Of a DNA stretch of 34,216 bases, positions 3,407 to 32,364 are shown in pieces. This DNA is from an uncultured Gammaproteobacteria bacterium (GTDB lineage Bacteria; Pseudomonadota; Gammaproteobacteria; GCA-001735895): the NCBI GenBank assembly GCA_937936805.1, contig CALDDP010000025.1, positions 1-34,216 on the forward strand, read 5' to 3'. The notes beneath the pieces are model-generated. The model made no database searches. It was not told the origin of the DNA and saw only the letters and a program-made list of their open reading frames with translations. Position 1 is the stretch's first letter. The number at the start of each line of letters is the position of its first letter. A program made the position numbers and the translations under genes.

Positions 3407-3865
3407 TCAGTGGTTACCGAATTTTGCCTTGAGCCAGTTGTCTATCGAGAAAAAACCGCCACCGTAGATAACGCTGGTCAGCAGCATCGACCCCCACAGG
3501 TAATGCCATACCAGGCCGGCACCTTTGGCCAGGGTCGCATAGTAAGATACCACCGCGATGATATTGACCAGGCTAAGCGCAATCGCGGTTAAACGGGTAC
3601 CCAGGCCAGCGATTAAAAATACCGGGAATACGAGTTCGCCAAAGGTGGCCAGATAGGCAGCCAGCTCGAAATTCAGTAATGGAACCTGGTACTCGTATTC
3701 GAACAGGACCAGCGTGGTTTCCCAGTCGCCTATTTTATGCATCCCCGATTTTAAAAACACCCAGGCGACATAAACTCGAATAAATAACAGGAATGGCGAC
3801 TGTAACGTTGATAAGCCGTTGCCTATCGTCCGTGTCGGTGCGTCTAGTCTATCGATTAACCCCAT
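3407..3865 (-). CDS. DoxX family membrane protein
   Basis: This 152-residue integral membrane protein has about four hydrophobic helices. The opening segment FLLFIRVYVAWVFLKSGMHKIGDW is typical of the DoxX family, and the middle segment ELAAYLATFGELVFPVFLIAGLGTRLTAIAL carries the conserved E-P and G-R-A elements. DoxX proteins are linked in various bacteria to thiosulfate:quinone oxidoreductase or to redox partners, but the role of stand-alone copies is unclear and no partner is visible here. It starts 82 bp downstream of the valS stop on the same strand, so co-transcription from valS is possible. The family call is firm and the function open. Confidence 0.85.
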   Translation of the reverse strand: MGLIDRLDAPTRTIGNGLSTLQSPFLLFIRVYVAWVFLKSGMHKIGDWETTLVLFEYEYQVPLLNFELAAYLATFGELVFPVFLIAGLGTRLTAIALSLVNIIAVVSYYATLAKGAGLVWHYLWGSMLLTSVIYGGGFFSIDNWLKAKFGNH

Positions 3866-3947
3866 ACTCTGAATCCCCCGGATTATTATTTAAGTTTGTA
3901 GCCACGTTTGAACCCGGGGTTCGCATAAAGTTCATAAAAATTCGATG

Positions 3948-6716
3948 CTAGATAGTCGAAATACGCTCCGCCTGTTTACGCAAACTACCCAGTGCGGACT
4001 CCGCTTCAGCCAGTTTTTCTCTTTCCTTGCCAACCACATTTTCAGGCGCTCTCGAAACAAAGTTTTCATTCGACAGTTTGCTCTTGATGCGCTGCGCATC
4101 CTGCTCCAGTTTATCGATGTTCTTTTGCAGGCGTGCAAGTTCAGCCTGCTTGTCGATCAGTCCGGCTAGTGGAATCAACAACTGCATATCGCCAACCAGG
4201 GAGATTGCGGATTCGGGTGCCTTGCTGTCTTCATCCAGCCAGGTAATCGATTCGAGTTTTGCCAGTGACTCGAGCAGTGAACGATTAGCCGTGATGCGTT
4301 GCTGATCAAGTGCATCGCCCTTGTGGCAGATAAGCGGCAGGGTTTTACCCGGTTTGATATCCATTTCCGAGCGAATCTGGCGTACCCCCATGATGAAAGT
4401 TTTAACCCAATCCAGTTCGGCCAGTGCGTCGACATCGATTAACGCCGCGTCGGCCTGCGGGTAGTCGCAACGCATGATGGTTGCGCCTTCTATCCAGGCC
4501 AGCGGTGCGACGCGTTGCCACAATTCCTCGGTGATGTAGGGCATGATCGGATGCAGCAGGCGCAGGATCGACTCGAGCACGGTAACCAGCGTGTGGCGGG
4601 CGGCTTTTTTCGCCTCGATCGGGTAGGCGTCGGAATACAGCACCGGCTTGGACAACTCGATGTACCAGTCGCAGTAGTCGTTCCACACGAACTCGTACAA
4701 ATCGCGCGCCACCAGGTCAAAGCGATAGCCGTCGATATGCTTGCCGATATCCTGGCTGACCAGTTGCAGGCGCGCGACGATCCAGCGGTCGGCCAGGGTC
4801 TGCTTACCCGCGGTGCAATCCTCGCCTTCGGTATTTTGCAAAACGTAGCGGGTCGCGTTCCAGAGCTTATTGCAGAAATTACGATAGCCTTCGATGCGTC
4901 CCAGGTCGAAGCGAATATCGCGCCCGGTTGTGGCGAGTGCGGTAAAGGTAAAGCGCAGCGCGTCGGTGCCATATGCGGGGATCCCATCCGGGAAGTGCCT
5001 GCGCGTGGCCTCTTCGATGCGCGGCGCCATCTCCGGTTGCATCAGGCCCGTGGTGCGCTTGGCGAGTAGATCCTCGAGCGTAATTCCATCGATCAGATCG
5101 AGCGGATCGAGCACGTTACCCTTGGACTTCGACATCTTGTTGCCGTCGGCGTCGCGCACCAGGCCGTGAATATAAACCTGGTGGAAAGGCACCTCGTCCA
5201 TGAACTTAAGCCCGAACATAATCATGCGTGCGACCCAGAAAAATATTATATCGAAGCCGGTTACGAGTACGCTGGTCGGGTAAAAGGTTTGCAGCGCCGG
5301 GTCGTCGCGGTCTGGCCAGCCGAGCGTGCTGAAGGGCCACAACGCGGAAGAAAACCAGGTGTCGAGCACGTCCTCGTCCTGGGTTAGCTCGACATCCGCT
5401 GCGAGTCCGTACTTGCGATGCGCCTCTTCAAGGCTGGACGCGACGTAAATATTGCCGTAATTGTCATACCAGGCGGGTATGCGATGGCCCCACCAGAGTT
5501 GGCGCGAAATACACCAGTCCTGGATATTTTCCATCCAGTTGTAATAAGTCTTGCTCCAGTTCTCGGGGATAAAACGGATACGACCATCTTTAACGGCTTC
5601 GATCGAAGGCTTCGCCAATGGTTCGGCACGCACGAACCATTGATCGGTCAAATAGGGCTCGATAACCACGCCGGAGCGATCACCGTAGGGACGTTTGTAA
5701 ACATGGTCTTCGGTCTTGACCAACAGTCCCTCGGCGTCAAGATCGAGGACGATTTTATCGCGCGCAACGAAACGGTCCATGCCCTGATACGCCGCTGGTG
5801 CGTTTTCATTCATCACTGCATCGGGTGTAAACAGGTTGATAACTTCCATTTCGTGTCGCTGTCCGACTTCGTAATCGTTGAAATCATGTGCCGGAGTGAT
5901 CTTGACGCAACCGGTGCCGAACTCGGGATCGACGTAGTCGTCGGTGATGACGGGTATAACCCGGGTGGTCAGTGGAACCTGTACCTGTTGGCCGATAAAA
6001 TCCCGGTATCTATCATCCTGTGGGCTGACTGCCAGGGCTCCATCCGCGAGAATTGTTTCAGGCCGGGTGGTCGCAATTTCAAGATGGGTGACACCGTTGA
6101 CGGGTCCGTCAACCAGGGGGTAGCGGACGTGATAAAGATACCCCTTTTCTTCTTCGTTGATGACTTCGAGATCGGAAATCGCGGTATGCAGCACCGGGTC
6201 CCAGTTGACCAGTCGTTTGCCACGATAAATCAGATCTTCTTCATAAAGCTTGATAAAAACTTCCTGTACCGCGGCGGACAGGCCTTCATCCATGGTGAAT
6301 CTTTCACGCGCCCAGTCGGGCGAGGCGCCCATGCGGCGCAACTGCCGGGTAATCGTGCCACCGGATTCGCTTTTCCATTGCCACACCCGCTCGGTAAATG
6401 CATCGCGGCCCAGGTCATGGCGGGTCTTGCCTTCCTTGCTCAACTGTCTTTCGACCACCATTTGCGTGGCAATGCCCGCATGGTCGGTGCCTGGTTGCCA
6501 CAGGGTGTTATCGCCCTTCATGCGATGATAACGGATCAGTGTATCCATGATTGTATCCTGGAATGCGTGGCCCATGTGCAGGCTGCCGGTCACGTTCGGT
6601 GGCGGGATCACGATACAGTAGGGATCACCGTCGCCCCGGGCGGCGAAATAGCCTTCATCCTCCCAGCGTTGGTACCAGGTTTCTTCTATCGAATGTGGGT
6701 CGTAGGTTTTTTCCAT
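3948..6716 (-). CDS. valS: Valyl-tRNA synthetase
   Basis: ValRS charges tRNA-Val with valine and edits mischarged threonine. The product is 922 residues from the ATG at 6716; two TTG codons just upstream are in frame but less likely. The class I HIGH-type motif is in [15 protein letters not shown] near residue 45, and the KMSKS motif is in [10 protein letters not shown]. The CP1 editing region lies between them, and the C-terminal coiled-coil arm ([20 protein letters not shown]) is complete. Gene order pepA-holC-(unknown)-valS follows that of E. coli, with one small gene inserted. A TATAAT box lies upstream. Confidence 0.97.
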
Positions 6717-11934: not shown

Positions 11935-11964
11935 GACAGCCGTAAGTTAACGTGAGGAGACTTG

Positions 11965-12447
11965 ATGATGGCGACAGCGAAAAAAGCAGTAAAGTCGAAG
12001 CCCAAAGCGAAAGCTAAAAAACCAGCAGTAAAGAAAAAGCCAGTTGCACCAGCAGCAAAGAAAAAAGCAAGCAAGCCAGTAGTAAAAAAGAAAGCGGCAA
12101 AGCCCGCGGCCAGGAAGAAAGTCGTAGAGAAAAAAGCGACCCGCCCCGTGGTTAAAAAGAAAGCAGCAAAGCCCGCGGTTAAGAAACGACCAGCGACAAA
12201 AAAGAAGTCATCCGCAAGTTCCGCTTCCAGTGCCAGGGTGAAGTCCTTAGAGGCCACCATCAAGGCTCTGAAAAATCAGATTGCAGCATTGAAGGAAGAG
12301 GTTAAGAGCCACGGCAAGCATGTCAATCTCCTGGATAACCTTTCTGCAAAACGTAGCTCGGCTATTGCAAAGTTCATAAGCGGATGGGATAGGATGGCCC
12401 ACGCCGGAGCGGCCAAGTCGGCAAAGGCCAAAAAGAAGAAAAAGTAA
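11965..12447 (+). CDS. Histone H1-like / AlgP-like lysine-rich DNA-binding protein
   Basis: The first half of this 160-residue protein is a low-complexity array of lysine, alanine, proline and valine in KKAAKPA and KKPVVKKK units, like the C-terminal tail of eukaryotic histone H1 and of Pseudomonas AlgP. Residues about 85-115 form a helical, coiled-coil-like segment (LEATIKALKNQIAALKEEVKSHG), followed by a short globular-looking part (AIAKFISGWDRM) and a second basic tail ending in KKKKK. The expected role is nonspecific DNA binding in the nucleoid; a regulatory role as in AlgP is possible but unproven. GAGGAG at 11954-11959 supports the ATG at 11965 or, with better spacing, the one at 11968. 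A strong terminator follows. Confidence 0.85.
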   Translation: MMATAKKAVKSKPKAKAKKPAVKKKPVAPAAKKKASKPVVKKKAAKPAARKKVVEKKATRPVVKKKAAKPAVKKRPATKKKSSASSASSARVKSLEATIKALKNQIAALKEEVKSHGKHVNLLDNLSAKRSSAIAKFISGWDRMAHAGAAKSAKAKKKKK

Positions 12448-18566: not shown

Positions 18567-19160
18567 TCAGTCGCCGGGGTTTAAATCGTCAAAATCCCTG
18601 CGTACGTGTTCATATCTTTGCTGGAAATTGTTGCTGTCGCCGTAGGATATAAATTTATGGTAGCGGCCGTGGATGGAGGATAGTTTTCTGGCGTGTTTTA
18701 TCGGGCACCAGTACTGCTCCGATCTGGCACCGATTTCCTGAATCCAGGCAATCAACCCGTTGAAGTAACTGCAGTAAATACAGTTCATCTTTTCGATCCA
18801 GTTGAGGTAGGCGAGGTTCTGGTGGTCGATGACGATATAGTCGCTGCGTTTCACCCTGGGAATACCGTAAATCCTGAAGCAGATGGAATGATAAATGGAA
18901 ACCACGAGATCCATAAATAGTGCTGGAACCAGGCACGACCAGATGATCGGGAAAGTCAATATATTGAGTATTGATGCTTCAGCCAGGTAGGTGCGAATAT
19001 TGGTGACAAGCGTTCGGTGGTAGCGCCGCGTCTCTTCCTCGAACCGTACCCGTTTTCCCTTGATGATATAAAAATACTCGTCCTGTTTCTGCTGCAGTTC
19101 CTGCAACAGTTCCTGCTCGAGATTTTTTATTTGCTCGATTATCTCTTCAAGTTTATTCAT
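18567..19160 (-). CDS. Conserved membrane protein of unknown function with CxxC and WCPIKH motifs
   Basis: I do not recognise a named family. The 197-residue product has an N-terminal coiled coil (about residues 1-50, EEIIEQIKNLEQELLQELQQKQ), a long hydrophobic region (about 62-95) that could be one long or two short membrane helices, and a C-terminal soluble part. The latter holds Cys127-x2-Cys130 (NCIYC), then Trp151-Cys152-Pro-Ile-Lys-His156, plus His113. Clustered Cys and His residues suggest a metal or thiol centre, but no known site is matched. It lies 86 bp downstream of the FimX-like gene on the same strand and could be co-transcribed. ATG at 19160. Confidence 0.8.
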   Translation of the reverse strand: MNKLEEIIEQIKNLEQELLQELQQKQDEYFYIIKGKRVRFEEETRRYHRTLVTNIRTYLAEASILNILTFPIIWSCLVPALFMDLVVSIYHSICFRIYGIPRVKRSDYIVIDHQNLAYLNWIEKMNCIYCSYFNGLIAWIQEIGARSEQYWCPIKHARKLSSIHGRYHKFISYGDSNNFQQRYEHVRRDFDDLNPGD

Positions 19161-19246: not shown

Positions 19247-21331
19247 CTACATCGAGCTGAAGTCGTAGTTCAGTTCCTTTTGCGGTGCCTGCAGAAACTC
19301 GCCCTGAACGAAATCGACATTCAAGGTCCATAGTACACTAAGAACTGCTGCATCGGTTACCCCGGGAGTTATCGTATTGATGTCCATATCACTCGCCTGG
19401 TAGGCAAGTTCACGAATACTGTCCTGGTTTTCAGCATTTTGCGCGAGGCCATCCATATAAACATGGTTGATGCGTACGTAATCCGCGTCGACATGTTTAA
19501 CCAGTTGAAATGGATTAAGCCCGGTACCAAACTCATCGATGCCGAATTTACAGTGAACTTGCTGCAGGGCCCTGGCCAGGGTCTTGGCGGCTTTGAGTTG
19601 ATTCACCGCATACGCTTCATCAATCATGAACACCAGTTGCGCTCCGTTGATTCCGGACTTGGCCAGATTTTCGGATACCCAGACGGCGAGTCCGGGGTCC
19701 TGGATCGAGTCGGCGCTCAAAGGTATGAAAAATTCAATTGCGCGCCCCTGTTTACTGCTGTCTGAAATCTTTTTTATGGCGTGCAGTATTTTCCAGCGAT
19801 CGAGCATTTTTGCGGTTCCGGTGCGTTCCGCGGCAGCCTGGTAGTCACGCGGATAAAGCGTTTCGCCGTCTTCGGAAGTAATTTCGAGGCTCGACAGGTA
19901 GCGCTCGCCGCCCTGCGCCTTGACCCCAACGATGGGTTGATACATTCCCCTGATGCGGTTCTGGTTGAGTGCGTTCTTAATCAGGTCGGCGGTAATGCCG
20001 TCCTCTTCTTCCAGTGTCATCTCGCCGGCCCTGGGGATATAGGTCCTGGATTGATTGCCGCCCTCGGCCTGGATTTCATCGCAGGCTTTTTCGGCTCGAG
20101 ATAAAATTTCATTTGGATTATCGGGTGAGTTTTCATCGATAAATACGATCGCTGCGCTGCAGGTTGCGTTGATCGATTTATTACCAATTTCGCAAACATA
20201 CTCCCCGACGAGTTCGGTTATCTTCGCGGCTAAGGATTCGCTCTGCTGCCTGTCCTTGATCTTGCTCAGGCAGGTGTAGGAACATGCGCCGAAGCGGGCA
20301 ACGATGTCTTCGGGTTCAGCATTTTTTATCAGTATGTCGGCAATATCGCTGATCAATGTATCGCAACCGGATATGCCCAGCAAGTCGCGTATCGACTGGA
20401 AGTTATCGATTGCTATGTAAATAATTGCCGATTGATGGATCGCATTGATCGCCTGGGTAATCGAAGTCTTTAGTTCATCCATAAAAAACTGGCGGTTGTA
20501 CAGTCCTGTGATCAGATCGTGCTGATGCAGGTAGTTGATCTGCTCTTCGAGCGCGGAGGTGTCGGCGCCGGAGCGAATCAGGATCTGCGTGCAGGGCTCG
20601 CCCTCGAAACTGGCGCGTGAGAATTCAAGCGTCGCGGTTATGTTTTCACCGCTGCTATGAATCAATTTCAGGTTAAGTTCGTTGCTATCGTTTTCCTCTT
20701 TACTCAGCTCGCGTAAGAAATTTTTTAACTCGGTTTGTTGCGAAGAATCAACCATGTCGATAATCGACGTACCCTCGAGTTCATCGAAATCCGCGTTGCC
20801 AAACAGTTCCATGTAGGCCTCGTTAGCATAAATATGCATGCCTTCATGTACATAGGCTACGGCATCCTTGGAGCTTGAAAGTAGATTCTGGCAACGTTTC
20901 TCGCTTTCCTGGAACTGAAGTTCCAGTCGCATCGCGCGCCGCCAGATATTGATATTGAACGACTCGCGCTTGATGACCTGGATTAAATGCTCGAGATTGT
21001 CGCTGGCTACGACATCCTGTGCGCCTTTATCGATCGCCGCAACTATTACCTCGCTGTCGATTTTTTTTGCCATCGCGATCAAGGCCACGTGACGACCACA
21101 TTCAGAAATCAGCTGCTTTGCCTGGCCAAGGGATAACTCGGGCAGATCGACTGAGAACAGCACCAGATCGAGGGTTTTATTTTCGAGAATCTGCGCCATG
21201 TCCTCGCCGTCTTCAGCGAATTCAGCGCGCACATGCATTCCGGCCGCGCGCAACGAGCTGGTTATTTTTTCGGCCTTGTGGACGCCTTCGTCAACGATCA
21301 GCAGGCGAATCAGTTTTTCTTCAGTTTCCAT
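19247..21331 (-). CDS. FimX-like protein with degenerate REC-PAS-GGDEF-EAL domains
   Basis: The 694-residue product has the length and domain order of Pseudomonas FimX (691), a c-di-GMP receptor needed for type IV pilus assembly and twitching. A REC-like domain (about 6-125) has Ser60 (LVLFSVDLP) where the phosphoacceptor Asp would be. A PAS domain follows (about 150-265). The GGDEF domain (HDLITGLYNRQFF onward) has FGACSYT in place of GGDEF. The EAL domain has SLEIT in place of EAL, though DEFGTGLNPF and FVQGEFLQAPQ remain. All three enzymatic sites look inactive, so a c-di-GMP-binding or scaffold role is inferred. The ATG at 21331 is preferred to a longer frame reaching the efp leader. No pil genes are in the window. 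Confidence 0.8.
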   Translation of the reverse strand: METEEKLIRLLIVDEGVHKAEKITSSLRAAGMHVRAEFAEDGEDMAQILENKTLDLVLFSVDLPELSLGQAKQLISECGRHVALIAMAKKIDSEVIVAAIDKGAQDVVASDNLEHLIQVIKRESFNINIWRRAMRLELQFQESEKRCQNLLSSSKDAVAYVHEGMHIYANEAYMELFGNADFDELEGTSIIDMVDSSQQTELKNFLRELSKEENDSNELNLKLIHSSGENITATLEFSRASFEGEPCTQILIRSGADTSALEEQINYLHQHDLITGLYNRQFFMDELKTSITQAINAIHQSAIIYIAIDNFQSIRDLLGISGCDTLISDIADILIKNAEPEDIVARFGACSYTCLSKIKDRQQSESLAAKITELVGEYVCEIGNKSINATCSAAIVFIDENSPDNPNEILSRAEKACDEIQAEGGNQSRTYIPRAGEMTLEEEDGITADLIKNALNQNRIRGMYQPIVGVKAQGGERYLSSLEITSEDGETLYPRDYQAAAERTGTAKMLDRWKILHAIKKISDSSKQGRAIEFFIPLSADSIQDPGLAVWVSENLAKSGINGAQLVFMIDEAYAVNQLKAAKTLARALQQVHCKFGIDEFGTGLNPFQLVKHVDADYVRINHVYMDGLAQNAENQDSIRELAYQASDMDINTITPGVTDAAVLSVLWTLNVDFVQGEFLQAPQKELNYDFSSM

Positions 21332-21441
21332 ATACTCTTGCGCTAACAACAGAATGCTTTTCCAGGTACCAATAATAGACGATATATTTCGAATCAAACA
21401 TAGATTCCGGTATGATTGGCGTTTTTTTGACTGAGACAGCA

Positions 21442-22011
21442 ATGGCAAGTTACAGCACTAATGAATTTCGCAGCGGCCTCAAGATCATGCTCGACGGCGA
21501 TCCCTGCGCCATCATCGAAAATGAATTCGTCAAACCGGGTAAGGGGCAGGCCTTCAATCGGGTCAAAATCCGCAACTTAAAGACGGGACGGGTACTGGAC
21601 AAGACCTTCAAGTCCGGCGAATCGGTCGATGCTGCCGACGTTATCGATGTCGATATGCAGTATCTTTACAGTGATGGTGAGTTTTGGCATTTCATGGATC
21701 CCGAGACTTACGAACAACAGGCCGCCGATGCCAACGCGGTCGGTGAGGCTCACCTCTGGCTGAAAGCGCAGGATAGTTGTGAAGTTACACTCTACAACGG
21801 CAGCCCGATCGGGGTAACGCCGCCCAATTTCGTCGAACTTGAAATCACCGATACCGATCCGGGATTAAAGGGAGATACCGCCCAGGGAGGCACCAAGCCG
21901 GCGACACTGGAATCAGGGGCTGTCATCAAGGTGCCGCTATTTCTCGAAATCGGTGAACGGGTCAGGGTAGATACCCGTTCGGGTGAATATATGTCACGGG
22001 TTAAGAAATAG
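21442..22011 (+). CDS. efp: Elongation factor P
   Basis: EF-P relieves ribosome stalling at polyproline stretches. The 189-residue product starts [16 protein letters not shown] and carries the modification loop [11 protein letters not shown] with Lys34, the residue that is beta-lysylated in E. coli. The C-terminal OB domain ends [14 protein letters not shown]. The presence of Lys rather than Arg at position 34, together with epmA 16 bp downstream, shows the organism uses the EpmA-type lysylation route and not the EarP rhamnosylation route of Pseudomonas. The ATG at 21442 matches the universal N-terminus. It diverges from the FimX-like gene across about 110 bp. Confidence 0.97.
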
Positions 22012-31590: not shown

Positions 31591-32364
31591 TTAGCCTGCT
31601 GCAATTCGCCTGACGGCAGGATTAAAGGTGGAGGTTTTACCGTGGCCTTCCTGTTTTGCCTGGTACAGGGCCAGGTCCGCACGCGCGAGCAGTTCATCGA
31701 TACTGACAGAAGTGCTGGGCTCGAAAGAGGTGAGCCCGATACTGGCGGTATACTTGATGATGCTGTCATTGTACTTTAGTACCGCCTTGTCGATCGCGCT
31801 GTGTAAACGGTCAGAGAATTCGATGGCCTCGCCGGTAGTAGTGCTGGGCAGGATCATGGCAAACTCTTCACCTCCCAGACGACCGGTAATATCACTGCGA
31901 CGGGCGACACTGTTAACAACGTTGGCGAAAAGCTTCAACACCGCGTCACCGGCAGAATGGCCGTACTTTTCGTTGATCAGCCTGAACTGGTCGAGATCTA
32001 TGATCATCACCGAGAATACTGTTTTTTCGCGAGTTGCGAGTGAGACATACTTACTCGCGCTATTGAAAAAAGCCTGCCGGCTTAATAATCCAGTCAACGA
32101 ATCGTAACTGACGGGTTTGCTTATGCTCTCTTCGACCTGGTAAACCCGAAAAATCAGGCTGACCAGAACCCAGCAAATGGGGGTTGCCACCAACAGAGGC
32201 ACGCAAGCCGCCATAATGACTGCGAGTTCGTATCCAATAGCAAAGCCGAATTTGTTGAGGATTACAACGACGCTTGAGGTAACTGCAATGGAGGCGAGCA
32301 CGGCGATAAAAGTGATAATCGCCACGGTTTTAAAACGCCCGAGTTTTGCCAGGAGCTTTACCAT
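31591..32364 (-). CDS. Diguanylate cyclase with two N-terminal membrane helices
   Basis: The 257-residue product has two hydrophobic segments (about residues 14-36 and 44-72) and a GGDEF domain (about 85-250). The active-site motif is GGEEF at 154-158, with the conserved DSLTGLLSRQAFF start and IIDLDQFRLINEKYGH. The inhibitory I-site RxxD is present as Arg145 to Asp148, five residues before GGEEF, so product inhibition is expected. It should synthesise c-di-GMP at the membrane with little or no periplasmic sensor. It is the first gene of the minus-strand run through the deacylase, UDG, decarboxylase and exporter. ATG at 32364 with AGGG about 10 bp upstream. Confidence 0.92.
   Translation of the reverse strand: MVKLLAKLGRFKTVAIITFIAVLASIAVTSSVVVILNKFGFAIGYELAVIMAACVPLLVATPICWVLVSLIFRVYQVEESISKPVSYDSLTGLLSRQAFFNSASKYVSLATREKTVFSVMIIDLDQFRLINEKYGHSAGDAVLKLFANVVNSVARRSDITGRLGGEEFAMILPSTTTGEAIEFSDRLHSAIDKAVLKYNDSIIKYTASIGLTSFEPSTSVSIDELLARADLALYQAKQEGHGKTSTFNPAVRRIAAG

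Follow-up and report, generated by a model that had tools for sequence, protein, structure and literature searches.

What does a small, cysteine-patterned membrane protein do, and is it tied to the FimX-like gene beside which it is encoded? The question is raised by a locus in a 34,216-nucleotide stretch of DNA from an uncultured Gammaproteobacteria bacterium (the window), in which a sequence-only reading had described a 197-residue protein combining an N-terminal coiled coil, a membrane segment and a C-terminal part that looked like a metal or redox centre. The gene, here called P0001, was confirmed at positions 18567..19160 by its open reading frame and translation; it lies on the minus strand, a detail absent from the earlier reading. 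The residues and strings singled out there (C127, C130, C152, H156, NCIYCSYFNG and YWCPIKHA) were all found in the translation. Comparison with three near relatives (L031–L033) gave a dN of about 0.13 against a dS of 1.1–1.9, the latter being near saturation, thus P0001 is a selected protein under purifying constraint. A chance open reading frame was considered and rejected, as dN is well under dS and hundreds of candidate stretches code for relatives. Elsewhere in the window, as judged by eye, a Lys/Ala-rich open reading frame at 11962–12447 resembles histone H1 or AlgP, and a GGDEF-type protein (GGEEF) at 31591–32364 represents a second c-di-GMP gene.

The predicted architecture agrees with a coiled coil at the N-terminus followed by a membrane segment, as had been claimed. 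Residues 1–29 (19074..19160, minus strand) form a coiled-coil-like helix, modelled by AlphaFold2 as a single helix over residues 2–29 (pLDDT block means 57–69), and reading of the sequence reveals heptad-spaced Leu/Ile residues at L4-I7-I11-L14-L18-L22. The sole strongly hydrophobic stretch of the protein contains residues 62–100 (18861..18977, minus strand; Kyte-Doolittle 19-residue mean up to 2.0). This segment is hairpin-like, with two conserved prolines (P71 and P79) and two predicted helices, 64–75 and 77–98 (pLDDT block means 77–92). Counts of K/R versus D/E in its flanks are 8 vs 4 in residues 30–61 and 4 vs 3 in residues 99–125, which suits a hairpin whose two ends lie in the reducing cytoplasm, the second side doing so weakly. 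The three cysteines C127, C130 and C152 all lie outside the hydrophobic stretch, in the Cys-x-x-Cys of residues 127–130 (18771..18782, minus strand) and in WCPIKH, residues 151–156 (18693..18710, minus strand), which comprises Cys152, Pro153 and His156.

We modelled both the whole protein and residues 99–197 alone (mean pLDDT 72.5 and 81.9, respectively). In both models one continuous helix spans residues 121–151, with the CxxC near its start and Cys152 at the joint to a next helix, which runs from 153 to 163 or 165. Within one chain, the CxxC and Cys152 are separated by approximately 33–38 Å, as estimated from helix rise in these monomer models. With the two motifs at either end of the same helix, the models do not predict that one chain forms a single site. 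Searches with the full model and the C-terminal part, at the mean pLDDT given above, found no convincing structural relative: the best Foldseek E values against the PDB were 7.9 and 7.0, the full model alone reached 3.1 against BFVD, and VIA-align gave Z scores of at most 4.7 and 4.5. The absence of a fold match does not amount to a new fold.

The statement that no known family fits P0001 held in profile searches of Pfam, NCBIfam and PHROGs and in a search of PDB sequences. All Pfam and NCBIfam matches of P0001 fell under the curated cut-offs, no zinc-finger family of Pfam was matched, PHROGs gave no significant match (best E 0.087), and the only match among PDB sequences had an E of 0.61. When 55 family members were compared with Pfam, only scattered weak matches appeared, with no family matched by more than 5 of the 55 at E up to 0.1. 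The weak matches were ORF28 PF23682 (E 0.0074, P0001 itself), DUF4059 (E 0.00078, one member of 55) and Promethin (best E 0.0024, two of 55), the last being a membrane-hairpin family; as far as displayed, they resemble the P0001 family mostly in hydrophobic or coiled-coil stretches. The string WCPIKH, the only one looked for, was absent from the literature text searched. A phage origin of the gene was also considered and rejected; in viral contigs, 12 pattern matches included no true relative.

Relatives are nevertheless numerous. Among the matches listed from GTDB contigs, at least 574 of at least 592 candidate stretches code for relatives of P0001 (the best 80 were kept), and the same matches include family records in Nitrospinota and Nitrospirota. 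Whole-genome searches found the family in 28 of 95 related genomes and in 43 of 397 Pseudomonadota genomes, the window's own genome being counted in each. It occurs in 9 of 198 genomes of the phylum of Desulfopila (centre genome counted, one of the nine copies a fragment), and in only 1 of 145 genomes of the phylum of a Verrucomicrobiales locus, namely the centre genome, whose copy may come from a misbinned contig. Copies are also present in six of 72,556 plasmid records. The family is thus patchy but phylum-spanning, and the databases searched give it no name.

In a tree of 109 rows the phyla are intermixed. The window's clade consists of members of its genus together with uncultured Gammaproteobacteria (99% SH-aLRT) and lies inside a larger group that also has Thiomicrorhabdus, Desulfobulbaceae and further sulfate reducers (93%), while one genus member (G027) groups with rows from other genera and families (86%). 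Horizontal transfer of the family is likely, with the reservation that MAG bins can mislead. Because phyla are mixed in the tree, copies lie on six plasmid records and the location varies within the genus, we regard P0001 as an accessory gene. In L026 and L150 an in-frame stop or a broken frame was seen, so the gene decays in some genomes. Three annotated plasmid copies (L153, L154 and L156) lie among stress-like genes for universal stress proteins, BON, CbpM and ChaB, with ppsA, VIT, a quinol oxidase and FdhF/YdeP also nearby.

The earlier reading had placed P0001 downstream of a FimX-like gene on the same strand, and this is correct: a REC-PAS-GGDEF-EAL gene (19247..21448, minus strand; Pfam assignment, PAS under cut-offs) ends 86 bases upstream of the P0001 start codon, and its best solved relative in a PDB sequence search is FimX 4j40 (E 4.2e-75). 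By eye, the GGDEF and EAL signatures of this neighbour look degenerate (FGACS; no EAL), hence its product is probably a receptor for c-di-GMP, not an enzyme. From the adjacency, P0001 could work with FimX in signalling through c-di-GMP or type IV pili, and a few more distant copies also have GGDEF-EAL-type genes nearby (three further loci among the 80, plus L096 and L159, at 20–23% identity). However, such genomes are rich in GGDEF-EAL genes, and the arrangement proved to be a genus-level one: fimX adjoins the family gene in 14 of the 17 carriers of the window's genus, but in none of the 11 other carriers among the 95 related genomes, with about 1.5 kb examined where the contig allows.

We also searched for fimX in 15 genomes of the genus, namely 12 of the 14 without a found copy of the family gene and the three carriers lacking the adjacency, and it was present in 14 of them. 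Fifteen fimX loci were fetched from genus genomes, 12 of which also show parC. At 11 loci, from 11 genomes, parC follows fimX within 170 bases and the P0001-family gene is not between them; eight of these genomes have no found copy, and the remaining three (G005, G012 and G027) carry the gene elsewhere. As for the other loci, in L199, from a genus member with no copy found, unexplained sequence of about 1 kb (about 3592–4607) separates fimX from parC; the flanks of L197 and L198 reveal no parC, and the fimX of L210 is fragmented. The contrast of 14/17 with 0/11, together with fimX-parC pairs lacking the gene, marks the adjacency as synteny in part of one genus. We conclude that P0001 is independent of fimX and that their adjacency is a local accident. 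The suggested tie to c-di-GMP or pilus signalling is largely refuted, and a FimX partnership is now very improbable; FimX, known from Pseudomonas and Xanthomonas, names the neighbouring gene, but it is no relative of P0001 and the linkage is not conserved. A tidy same-strand neighbour can, as this case shows, reflect lineage synteny alone.

For conservation within the family, a first set comprised 72 rows from whole-sequence searches; five of them (L013, L026, L027, L029 and L150), being fragments or disrupted copies, were left out, which gave 67 complete sequences, 60 of a short form (the window copy being one of them) and seven of a long form. Four matches of the Pseudomonadota search (G132, G140, G164 and G188) had no locus and their sequences are not in this set. 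A second set of 81 sequences included 80 found with six peptides, two of which (NWIEKMNC and EQYWCPIK) overlap the motifs. Since these 80 GTDB loci were partly retrieved by motif peptides, conservation among them is biased, and the whole-sequence loci were used instead; six of the 72 rows are identical to sequences in the second set.

All 67 complete sequences have the residues C127, C130, C152, D112, G135, E148 and P153, so that the CxxC is retained in 60/60 short and 7/7 long forms. The three cysteines are therefore invariant, while His156 is not fully so: it is found in 65 of 67 sequences (7/7 long forms and 58/60 short forms, Gln replacing it in the other two). This is close to the invariance that ligands of a candidate Cys-based metal site would display. 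Similar values came from the second set (the three cysteines in 81/81, H156 in 80/81), and among 55 short forms, in a set partly chosen by motif peptides, 29 columns show no variation. C94 occurs in 60/60 short forms, with a Cys one column off in six of the seven long forms.

The long forms measure 258–298 residues as read here and contain 92–97 extra residues between the two motifs, including an extra hydrophobic segment; the distance from the CxxC to Cys152 is 114–119 residues, compared with 22 in P0001. They lack His164, and six of the seven carry a C-terminal Cys-x2-Cys. These sequences (L141–L147) represent a distinct long-form paralogue family, and both forms are carried by G102, G110 and G114. 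In L142 and L143 the long form is adjoined by an open reading frame which by eye resembles a thioredoxin-like 2Fe-2S ferredoxin.

How should the invariant cysteines be read? The proposed metal or redox centre survives in part: the invariant cysteines fit a putative centre, but both models separate the CxxC from Cys152. Our main reading, to which we assign a probability of roughly 40%, is that P0001 is an oligomeric cofactor protein facing the cytoplasm and anchored by a hairpin, the Cys motifs being its putative ligands. The N-terminal coiled coil would make the protein a dimer or a higher oligomer, residues 62–100 would enter the inner membrane as a hairpin and come back, and the C-terminal part would supply candidate ligands from Cys127-x2-Cys130 and E148-x3-Cys152-Pro-Ile-Lys-His156. 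Because these motifs stand at opposite ends of one predicted helix, the site may form between antiparallel subunits, or there may be two sites; in the long form, the inserted hydrophobic segment would bring both motifs together in one chain. The role of such a protein at the membrane would probably be to sense, buffer or pass on a metal, haem or redox signal, in a setting of cation or metal stress, the gene being an accessory one that moves horizontally. The residues invariant across both forms and the absence of any enzyme family beyond weak scattered matches are in favour of this reading; the separation of the motifs within one chain, the two short forms with Gln at position 156 and the missing His164 of the long form count against it. 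The three cysteines and one near-invariant His are reminiscent of C2HC/C3H-type zinc or iron-sulfur sites, but the spacing in P0001 is C-x2-C-x21-C-x3-H, inside one predicted helix and at its end, and we know of no such site that fits it.

The same cysteines could instead act as thiols. P0001 would then be a metal-free redox protein performing a reversible disulfide exchange or relay at the membrane, or its thiols would be structural. CxxC is the usual redox motif, the cysteines are invariant, and a helix-borne thiol pair need not meet Cys152 within one chain. Thioredoxin-type CxxC sites, however, lie at a helix N-terminus and not inside a long helix as here, and the invariance of the third Cys and of the C-P pair would be left without explanation; we regard this alternative as rather unlikely. 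We are a little more doubtful of a membrane-surface enzyme, in which a catalytic Cys152 aided by His156, Glu148 or Asp112 would act on lipid or protein. The constancy of E148, C152 and D112 and the 29 invariant columns would suit it, but His156 is variable and neither profile nor structure searches returned a matching enzyme family or fold.

A further possibility is a haem sensor, with WCPIKH as a haem-regulatory Cys-Pro motif (Cys152 thiolate and His156 as second ligand) and the CxxC as a thiol/disulfide switch tuning haem binding. Yeast HAP1 has CP[VI]DH repeats, which CPIKH resembles, and haem-regulatory Cys-Pro proteins such as HAP1 and haem oxygenase-2 have a C-P-[V/I]-x-H-like stretch at a helix joint. 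Passages of a review (PMC10377097) place Cys-Pro motifs mostly in a loop joining two helices, with the Cys sometimes ending the first helix, and state that a nearby His favours six-coordinate haem. P0001 has the C-P pair, a hydrophobic residue, a nearby His and, in both models, Cys152 at such a predicted helix-helix joint. The likeness is one of motif and not of homology, such short motifs are frequent by chance, Gln can stand in place of His156, and no haem enzyme is found among the 25 commonest of 116 Pfam families in 143 neighbour open reading frames. Taken together, a haem-sensing role of this kind appears unlikely. Fur-type regulators occurred twice among the 143 (by eye at L166 and L170, which belong to one bacterial family).

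The gene neighbourhood was then considered with respect to the cofactor reading. Clustering of neighbours at the 80 loci gave, besides the family itself, no cluster of more than 13 loci, and distances were scattered, which speaks against this reading; gene calls in this clustering are crude, since open reading frames were picked by length and the family's own gene was picked at 69 of the 80 loci. In a Pfam tally of the 143 neighbour open reading frames, drawn from 24 loci, P-type ATPase families were on top, as judged from the 25 commonest families. They were not on top in a control tally of 131 open reading frames (25 commonest of 132 families), taken from 19 of 20 windows (L179, mostly N, was excluded, as were frames above 1300 aa); the comparison is rough because the two sets were not cut in the same way. 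Several distant copies have, within about 6 kb, genes for a copper ATPase (L154), CorA (L153), a low-affinity iron permease (L155), CobW (L158), a Na/Ca exchanger (L165), MgtE (L171) and VIT (L156), the non-ATPase transporters being chosen by eye (10 of 143 frames) with no control.

P-type ATPases with the DKTGT motif were present in 4 of the 20 target windows, where 0.31 would be expected (Poisson 3e-4), the expectation being derived from 94 Pfam-detected ATPases in 78.7 Mb summed over 20 genomes. None were found in the 19 readable control windows (of 20, one mostly masked), and the comparison of target with control, computed with all 20 controls, gave a Fisher p of 0.11. Over all 104 loci (1.146 Mb) there were 7 against 1.37 expected from the same rate (Poisson 5e-4), but the 80 pattern-selected loci held 2, about as expected. 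As the ATPase family was chosen after seeing the tally, the excess is a hint only. Cation_ATPase_C is present in 25 of the 43 genomes that have the family and in 139 of the 354 that lack it (Fisher 0.02), an association to which we give little weight since phylogeny is uncontrolled. The metal-cation transporters beside some copies thus hint weakly at cation or metal stress.

A bolder form of the cofactor reading would see in the family a new class of metal or haem sensor in bacterial membranes: a coiled-coil protein anchored by a hairpin, with a site built between subunits from the CxxC of one chain and the WCPIKH of its partner, spread horizontally among bacteria including sulfur oxidisers, nitrite oxidisers and sulfate reducers, whose long form would fold the same site within one chain by means of the inserted hydrophobic segment. 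We consider this speculative and improbable as a whole. With its invariant Cys set, His/Gln variant and long form, the family allows direct tests of the cofactor hypothesis. An unnamed family with several hundred found members, two architectures and indications of inter-phylum transfer presumably confers a specific benefit on environmental bacteria.
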